DNA from: Haloprofundus salilacus
GTDB lineage: Archaea; Halobacteriota; Halobacteria; Halobacteriales; Haloferacaceae
Assembly: GCF_020150815.1 (NCBI RefSeq)
Contig: NZ_CP083723.1
Coordinates: 806,001 to 870,000 of the forward strand
DNA length: 64,000 nucleotides
Reading direction: 5' to 3'
Of the stretch, positions 29,931 through 50,600 are shown piece by piece. Both the position numbers and the translations under genes were made by a program. Below the pieces are notes generated by a model, which was not told where the DNA came from, searched no databases, and saw nothing but the letters and a program-made list of their open reading frames with translations. Positions within the stretch are counted from its first letter, which is position 1, and the number at the start of each line of letters is the position of its first letter.

Positions 29931-30197
29931 ATGGGGAAAGTCGCCGCCAAGATGAAAGTGATGCCGCAGAGCCCCGAAATCGACCTCGACGAACTGCAGG
30001 AGCGTCTCGAGGACGCGCTGCCCGAGGGCGGGAAGATCAACGGCTTCGAGCGCGACGAAGTCGCGTTCGGACTCGTCGCCCTCCTGCCGACGGTCATCGT
30101 CCCCGACGATGCCGGCGGCACAGAAGCCATCGAGGAGGCGTTCACGAACGTCGACGGCGTCGAGAGCGTCGCCGTCGAGAACGTCGGTCGCATCTAA
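29931..30197 (+). CDS. ef1b: translation elongation factor 1-beta (aEF-1beta)
   Basis: An 88-residue guanine-nucleotide exchange factor for aEF-1alpha. [27 protein letters not shown] and [25 protein letters not shown] with the end [15 protein letters not shown] are typical of the archaeal family. It follows the zinc protein with a 2-base gap and is surely co-transcribed. Confidence 0.96.
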
Positions 30198-30355: not shown

Positions 30356-30527
30356 GTGTTTATCAGTGAATATGGGACCAGACAGCCCCATGCGTTGACG
30401 AGTCGTTGCGGAGTCGGTCAAGGTGGGTGTACGGCGCGCCGCTCCGCGAGTCGTGGGTATCGCTGTGCCGTCTGTTCGCTACAATCGATTTCTCGCTTGC
30501 TTCATCGTTCGTCGCCACGACGAACGA
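30356..30527 (+). ncRNA. candidate small RNA locus, copy A of an intergenic element
   Basis: The 405-base space between the aEF-1beta stop and the PLP-enzyme stop (30198-30602) holds no supported gene. A TATA-like TTTATC (30359-30364) is followed about 30 bases later by a block at 30398-30480 that is repeated, diverged, at 50527-50600. Within it 30406-30413 and 30442-30449 form an 8-bp stem around a 28-base loop with a conserved GTGTACGGCG. The block ends in GTCTGTTCGC in both copies. Copy A is followed by a perfect 10-bp hairpin with a CCA loop (30505-30527). The plus-strand orientation is inferred from the TATA box. See findings. Confidence 0.5.
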
Positions 30528-40398: not shown

Positions 40399-40926
40399 AT
40401 GGTCGACGCCGCGCCCGTCTCGAACGACGCAGCACCCGTCTTCGACGACCGAACGGCCGTGGGACGGGTCGAACGCGCCGACCTTCCGGTCGTCAGCCCC
40501 GCTGTCTCTCGAGAGGAGATCGAATCGGACGGCCGCGTCGGCGTCGTCGCCTACCCCTACCGCGTCTACGAGACGCGCGTCACGATGGCGCGACCTCTCC
40601 TCGGCGACCGGGTCGCGACGGTGACCGCGAGCGTCGACCGGTCGCGACGGGTGGCGCTCCGCGCCGACGAGTTCCCCGAGGTGGAGACGCAGACGGTGAC
40701 GGACGCTCTCGTGCTCCCGGCGGAACTCTCCTCGGCCGCCTGCGACGAGGAGGCGCGCGAGGCCGCGTTCAAGTGGACGCTCCGGAAGTTCTCGCTCAGC
40801 CGCGCGCCCGACATCGAGTTCGAGCGCGTCGTCGACGCCTACAAGCTGTTCTGGCTCGCCGAGCGCGACGACGGCGACGTAGTTGTCGACAGCGTGCGGG
40901 GCACCGAGCGGTCGCTGGACGAATAA
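40399..40926 (+). CDS. conserved protein downstream of the symporter, unknown function
   Basis: A 175-residue soluble protein, one base after the symporter stop and so in the same operon. It has ISREEIESDGRVGVVAYPYRVYETRVT-like beta-rich sequence, a central TVTDALVLPAELSSAACDEEAREAAFKWTLRKFSLSRAPDIEFE and a WLAERDDGDVVVDSVRG end. No motif is recognised. The tight linkage suggests a role in control or cytoplasmic handling of the transported solute. Confidence 0.78.
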   Translation: MVDAAPVSNDAAPVFDDRTAVGRVERADLPVVSPAVSREEIESDGRVGVVAYPYRVYETRVTMARPLLGDRVATVTASVDRSRRVALRADEFPEVETQTVTDALVLPAELSSAACDEEAREAAFKWTLRKFSLSRAPDIEFERVVDAYKLFWLAERDDGDVVVDSVRGTERSLDE

Positions 40927-50485: not shown

Positions 50486-50600
50486 GGTTTTTGAACGAAA
50501 AGGCGACCACCCCCGGCCGTGAGCTAACGAGTCGTCGCGGGGCGGTCGAGGCGAGTGTACGGCGAACCCCCCGCGAGAACGGAATCGTCGTCTGTTCGCA
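50486..50600 (+). ncRNA. candidate small RNA locus, copy B of the intergenic element
   Basis: It lies in the 261-base space between two convergent genes. TTTTTGAACGAA (50488-50499) resembles a TATA box, and the block 50527-50600 matches copy A (30398-30480) with about 57 identical positions of 74 and a few gaps. The 8-bp stem is 50535-50542 with 50569-50576. At two places where A and B differ, pairing is kept (A-U to G-C and G-U to C-G). It ends with the same GTCTGTTCGC. There is no reading frame conserved without gaps. See findings. Confidence 0.5.

Follow-up and report, generated by a model that had tools for sequence, protein, structure and literature searches.

A multicopy pseudoknotted RNA family of Halobacteriales with a conserved start-X-stop at its predicted 5' end

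Introduction

Two-codon minigenes, such as bar of phage lambda, consist of a start codon, one sense codon and a stop codon, and are expected to engage ribosomes and to drop or hold peptidyl-tRNA. These minigenes are leadered pieces of bacterial mRNA without a pseudoknot. The readthrough signal of murine leukaemia virus gag-pol contains an H-type pseudoknot about 8 nt after the stop codon, and the RNAs of type III toxin-antitoxin systems (ToxI) are small H-type pseudoknots. PMC8708949 deals with a minigene located in a toxin-antitoxin operon.

Most haloarchaeal mRNAs are leaderless, with leaderless transcripts accounting for 72% in Haloferax volcanii, and leaderless GUG starts are a small minority in this organism and weak in reporter tests (PMC4983044). 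Two short intergenic RNAs with their own TATA box, rancRNA_s194 and sRNA132, have been described in H. volcanii; s194 is ribosome-associated, sRNA132 is predicted to form two plain stems, and both are reported within Haloferax only (PMC6104027, PMC6560208).

The family described here has the start codon, single sense codon and stop codon of the bar minigenes, and is distinguished from them by its predicted leaderless start, its fusion to a conserved pseudoknot and its presence in up to 29 chromosomal copies. Unlike ToxI, it occurs as single units without tandem repeats whose neighbours vary between copies, and none of the neighbours inspected was recognised as a toxin gene. It is order-wide, multicopy and pseudoknotted, unlike s194 and sRNA132; identity with either was rejected, both being reported from Haloferax only.

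Two copies in the window

The window, a stretch of 64,000 nt of Haloprofundus salilacus (contig NZ_CP083723.1, positions 806,001 to 870,000), contains two copies of the element, A and B. A first-pass annotation had matched them at about 57 of 74 positions; end-to-end alignment gives 62/73 paired positions. Both of the 10-base identities that it described are found in the sequence, as is an 8-bp stem in each copy with two covarying positions that keep pairing. The similarity of the two copies exceeds chance by far. The covariance model R1, built from 20 copies of the own genome and of congeners with stem P1 only, scores copy A at 101.4 bits and copy B at 79.0 bits, the next match in the window reaching 15.7 bits.

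Copy A is flanked by an open reading frame whose end is at 30197, in a ribosomal/elongation-factor region, and by a cystathionine gamma-synthase-like gene in convergent orientation. The neighbours of copy B are an aminotransferase gene and, again convergent, an aldehyde dehydrogenase-like gene; all these gene names are by-eye readings. The copies are intergenic, so that a coding gene tail, which the first reading had named as a refuting outcome, does not account for the match. Most copies lie between convergent genes; one (L155) occupies a short dhaK-dhaL gap (names by eye), inside an operon. Neighbour functions are unrelated from copy to copy, save at orthologous sites, which argues against cis regulation of one pathway.

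A 10-bp hairpin at 30505-30527 had been attributed to copy A. It belongs outside the element, because it lies 25 nt beyond the last base that is conserved and has no counterpart downstream of the other copies. The hairpin is near-perfect in the window and imperfect in the closest congener, and is likely to be local (perhaps a terminator) or a chance feature. The window also contains a tRNA-Thr gene (CGT anticodon) at 40510-40599 on the minus strand (ARAGORN).

Promoter and RNA ends

The promoter proposed before both copies is conserved over 171 loci. In the promoter profile of these loci, positions -37 to -34 read CRAA (BRE-like), a TATA box occupies -30 to -27 and a GAA..CGGGACCA motif (containing GGGACCA) occupies -21 to -9; the initiator has C at -1 (85%) and a purine at +1. 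From the BRE, TATA and GGGACCA elements and the pyrimidine-purine initiator, the transcription start is predicted at alignment position 1. Conservation stops about 3 bases beyond the 3' tail, and no T-run terminator follows it (TTTT within 40 nt in just 5/171 loci). The product would be an independently transcribed, non-coding RNA of about 80-95 nt (~85). With a basal promoter of its own and an intergenic position, the element is a candidate haloarchaeal intergenic sRNA.

The features of the two copies upstream of the fold, and the extent of the predicted RNAs, are as follows.

30359..30364, + strand: copy A TATA box (TTTATC), -31 to -26 (sequence; promoter profile, 171 loci)
30374..30380, + strand: copy A conserved promoter motif GGGACCA (sequence; promoter profile)
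30390..30480, + strand: copy A predicted RNA, from the inferred transcription start to the last conserved tail base (R1 101.4 bits; -1 C/+1 purine initiator; conservation stops ~3 nt after tail)
30390..30398, + strand: copy A putative leaderless mini-ORF AUG-CGU-UGA (sequence; family statistics)
50488..50493, + strand: copy B TATA-like box (TTTTTG) (sequence; promoter profile)
50503..50509, + strand: copy B promoter motif (GCGACCA) (sequence; promoter profile)
50519..50600, + strand: copy B predicted RNA, from the inferred transcription start (R1 79.0 bits)
50519..50527, + strand: copy B putative leaderless mini-ORF GUG-AGC-UAA (sequence; family statistics)

The GGGACCA-type motif (30374-30380 and 50503-50509) is kept family-wide, whereas conservation is lost upstream of the promoter. 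This motif may be a dedicated regulator site common to all copies.

Copy number and distribution

BLAST of the window's own genome turned up one more close copy and signs of others, and four congeners carry several copies each. R1 detects 28 copies in the own genome at E <= 2.3e-4 (next match 0.35), and the broader model R2 detects 29 (next match E 0.033); the supposed paralogous pair is therefore part of a set of 29. The 3.24-Mb contig carries all 29 copies, leaving the 0.49-Mb contig without any (chance 0.017).

The search of other haloarchaea with a covariance model, which the first-pass annotation had suggested, returned matches in 84/146 genomes of Halobacteriales from eight families (R2, E <= 0.001), with per-genome counts from at least 1 to at least 29 (29 candidates scored per genome). 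A phylum-wide sample of 197 genomes contained 17 positives, all of them Halobacteriales, and none was seen in this sample outside that order. Copies number 25 in Haloarchaeobius iranensis, 22 in Halegenticoccus tardaugens, 18 each in Halobium salinum and Halorarius litoreus, 15 each in Salinigranum salinum and Halobellus inordinatus, 9 in Halostella pelagica, 4 in Haloarcula and 1-2 in Haloferax. Haloferax has two genuine sites. In H. prahovense one is at NZ_AOLG01000047.1 94983-95061 (minus strand), flanked by a gene for a 137-aa protein and one for a HAD-type hydrolase, with rtcB and lsm nearby; the other is at 57802-57881 of contig C46 (minus strand), next to a ycaO-like gene. Weak third matches (L314-L316) in Haloferax were discarded, as they coincide with the beginning of an ABC transporter gene. 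No copies were found in the six Natrialbaceae genomes or in the Haloquadratum, Halonotius, Natronocalculus or Halococcus genomes examined.

BLAST of plasmid and phage records with the consensus gave no match. A pattern search of viral contigs returned 34 loci with only the L1/P2 string in common, none with a pattern spanning both element ends, and R2 gave only two marginal matches on these loci (E 0.008 and 0.06).

The high and variable copy number and the patchy distribution would suit a mobile or repeated element scattered through the genome (MITE or SINE-like), the structure of which is a by-product of transposition. This explanation is very unlikely. As judged from flanking proteins, the site of copy A is occupied both in the genus of the window and in family f4 (Halostella among others), an aroA-like site in families f1 as well as f2, and a moaC-like site in f1 as well as f4. 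The occupation of orthologous sites across families indicates that the element is no transposon, which also disposes of the earlier worry that the match was a transposon end. No terminal repeats were seen by eye in the aligned copies, the promoter and start point are conserved, and the helices are under compensatory selection.

Secondary structure

The element folds, on comparative sequence evidence, as an H-type pseudoknot. The 8-bp stem described earlier is real and corresponds to P1 (columns 18-24 with 53-59, extension 27-28 with 50-51), and it constitutes only half of the fold. In the second helix, P2, the conserved GUGUACGGCG (ACGGCG after L1) pairs with the bases immediately preceding the 3' tail; the two helices cross, which makes the fold an H-type pseudoknot. 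P1 has about 10 bp and P2 7 bp, loop L1 has 13 nt (UCGAGGCGGGUGU), and the 3' tail is CUGUUCGCC. The parts of the fold were assigned in the two copies as follows.

30406..30417, + strand: copy A P1 5' strand (UUGCGGAG, bulge, CGG) (covariation)
30418..30430, + strand: copy A loop L1 (UCAAGGUGGGUGU), conserved (column frequencies)
30431..30437, + strand: copy A P2 5' strand (ACGGCGC) (covariation)
30439..30449, + strand: copy A P1 3' strand (CCG CUCCGCGA) (covariation)
30465..30471, + strand: copy A P2 3' strand (GUGCCGU) (covariation)
30472..30480, + strand: copy A tail (CUGUUCGCU), conserved (column frequencies)
50536..50545, + strand: copy B P1 5' strand with CGG extension (CGCGGGG CGG) (alignment)
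50546..50558, + strand: copy B loop L1 (UCGAGGCGAGUGU) (alignment)
50559..50565, + strand: copy B P2 5' strand (ACGGCGA) (alignment)
50567..50575, + strand: copy B P1 3' strand (CC CCCCGCG) (alignment)
50585..50591, + strand: copy B P2 3' strand (UCGUCGU) (alignment)
50592..50600, + strand: copy B tail (CUGUUCGCA), conserved (alignment)

Among 166 unique pooled sequences, the 13 column pairs with the highest mutual information all belong to P1 or P2. In alignment A4 (100 sequences), 95.5% of cells pair and double changes occur in 16/16 pairs; 306 double-changed cells were observed versus 63 in shuffles, and 0/500 shuffles reached the observed value. Alignment A2, made by MAFFT from sequence only, has 93.7% of its cells paired, versus at most 52% in slid controls. 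The percentages for P1 cells lean upward where P1 was part of the models that gathered the sequences, A2 having been built without P1, whereas the support for P2 is unbiased because P2 was absent from every covariance model. Compensatory changes thus abound in other haloarchaea; a lack of them was named at the outset as the finding that would speak against a structured RNA. Folding of single sequences without pseudoknots gave z 0.44 for copy A (uninformative) and z -2.1 for copy B (modest).

L1 has 13 nt in 129/166 sequences. L3 is shorter than 6 nt in a single sequence and mostly has 7 nt or more, as expected of a loop that must span the 10-bp P1. No other unpaired parts are as conserved as L1 and the tail, which are identical in almost every copy. 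GGCGGG of L1 and UUCGCC of the tail are complementary in most copies (e.g., 30422-30427 with 30475-30480), which possibly represents an alternative fold or a partner site. Pairing of L1 with the tail as part of the fold itself was rejected, since the two do not covary and their pairing would be incompatible with the combination of P1 and P2.

The initial reading, a structured small RNA that has its own promoter and a covarying stem, is supported by these data; the copy number, the second helix and the 5' start-X-stop are features beyond it.

Start-X-stop at the 5' end

A/GUG, one sense codon and a stop codon follow from the inferred start point in 152/166 copies, and in 56/60 copies of a held-out set from six other genera. 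The pooled figure is 208/226 copies with the sequence of a two-codon minigene, the exact pattern being absent from 18/226. GUG is the commoner start (about 77%). The second Haloferax copy starts AUU-CUG-UGA in five species (L307-L311), a consistent exception to A/GUG. The RNA would be leaderless, because transcription is predicted to start on the start codon (GUG or AUG).

The 5' RTG-NNN-TRA may also be regarded as a protein- or RNA-binding motif that merely resembles start-X-stop. Such a motif could account for the frequency of ACC at codon 2 (36%), and any transcription start would be expected to have a purine at +1. This reading is unlikely in view of the stop triplets, which in the pooled set are UGA (197), UAA (16), UAG (4) and UGG (0). 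A third base G occurs in four copies, all of which have A at the second base (Fisher p 5.4e-5), and the absence of UGG compares with 3.6 expected under independence. Three-base indels also keep the frame from start to stop, the length variants being AUG-UGA (L138, L350), GUG-GAG-GAG-UGA (L262) and GUG-AUC-GAG-UGA (L352). Comparison of the copies demonstrates selection for a start-X-stop that would be read as leaderless.

Codon 2 is represented by 24 different sense codons. It prefers ACC/CGY and is almost never G-initial, the opposite of usual haloarchaeal codon frequencies. Codon 2 is therefore not neutral, and part of the leader may act as RNA sequence.

The spacer between the stop codon and P1 is 7-8 nt in 146/152 copies, within the 5-9 nt of the gag-pol type of pseudoknot. 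A stop codon followed by C, with a pseudoknot 7-8 nt on, is the layout of viral readthrough signals, and C follows the stop in about half of the copies. Pseudoknot-stimulated recoding, in which the stop is read through to give a longer peptide as in murine leukaemia virus gag-pol, would require coding sequence downstream. Unlike gag-pol, the family has no conserved reading frame beyond the stop: stop-to-tail lengths are spread evenly over the three frames (58/49/45), the in-frame path past the stop is no more open than the other frames, and the helices and loops vary in an RNA-like and not a codon-like manner. Readthrough coding is largely refuted by the frame statistics, and recoding is extremely unlikely.

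Comparison with known RNA families

No Rfam 15 family matches the window at gathering score, and permissive Rfam scans of both copies and 20 loci gave chance-level matches only, unrelated to the element. The C/D sR families likewise gave no match at gathering score, with one chance-level sR15 match just upstream of copy B (E 5.6). Archaeal C/D box guide RNAs carry boxes C (RUGAUGA) and D (CUGA), which close a kink-turn. CUGA is present in the leader of the element, but column frequencies show no conserved RUGAUGA, and a C/D box guide RNA was rejected. A guide RNA with the variable part as the guide was rejected as well: most of the variable sequence lies in helices, where it does no more than maintain pairing. 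No link with H225.2R was found; the TATA-binding-protein gene, which presumably lies beside H225.2R, is absent near both Haloferax sites. The open-access literature searched contains no description of the family, and supplementary sRNA tables of Haloferax may hold one or two members as anonymous transcripts. The family is previously undescribed.

Proposed function

The RNA family itself is near certain to be real. Its best explanation, to which a probability of roughly 0.55 is given on sequence grounds, is a leaderless RNA with a two-codon minigene, on which a ribosome would be parked against the pseudoknot. The ribosome would initiate at the 5' end of the RNA, form at most one peptide bond and arrive at the stop codon. 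With the ribosome at the stop, the foot of the pseudoknot would be at the mRNA entry, so that the ribosome would be held or slowly released. Near-immediate termination with a pseudoknot at the entrance implies that the RNA would hold ribosomes or be read by them. Its job, which is less certain, may be to occupy or sense ribosomes (parking, translation tuning or sensing of translation status), with the dose set by many near-equivalent copies.

Ribosome stalling alone leaves the high conservation of L1 and the tail unexplained, and this conservation suggests a further partner. A trans-acting regulatory or protein-binding RNA would use L1 and the tail to bind one protein or RNA target, as a sponge or a base-pairing sRNA, and RTG-NNN-stop would shield or silence the 5' end. 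The many equivalent copies per genome, in nearly all of which these two most conserved unpaired parts are the same and without covariation elsewhere, are consistent with such a role. It is nevertheless rather unlikely, as it explains neither the fixed 7-8 nt distance from stop to pseudoknot nor the keeping of frame through length changes.

The ribosome-parking minigene could be extended to a new ribosome-directed RNA class, with dozens of leaderless start-X-stop transcripts in a genome, that reversibly parks or counts ribosomes and so provides a haloarchaea-specific device: a dosage-tuned translation brake, a hibernation aid or a sensor. This extension is tentative, at somewhat less than even odds.

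Significance

To our knowledge, few large structured RNA families are conserved throughout an archaeal order. Among the H. volcanii sRNAs tested, 22/27 were species-confined, and their poor conservation has been stressed (PMC3956466). The strong covariation, shared promoter, up to 29 copies per genome and absence from Rfam would mark a clear gap in the RNA catalogue. As Haloferax has just two copies, the family is testable at once. If the start-X-stop and the pseudoknot act on ribosomes, they would represent a new form of translation control, fitting organisms with mostly leaderless mRNAs.
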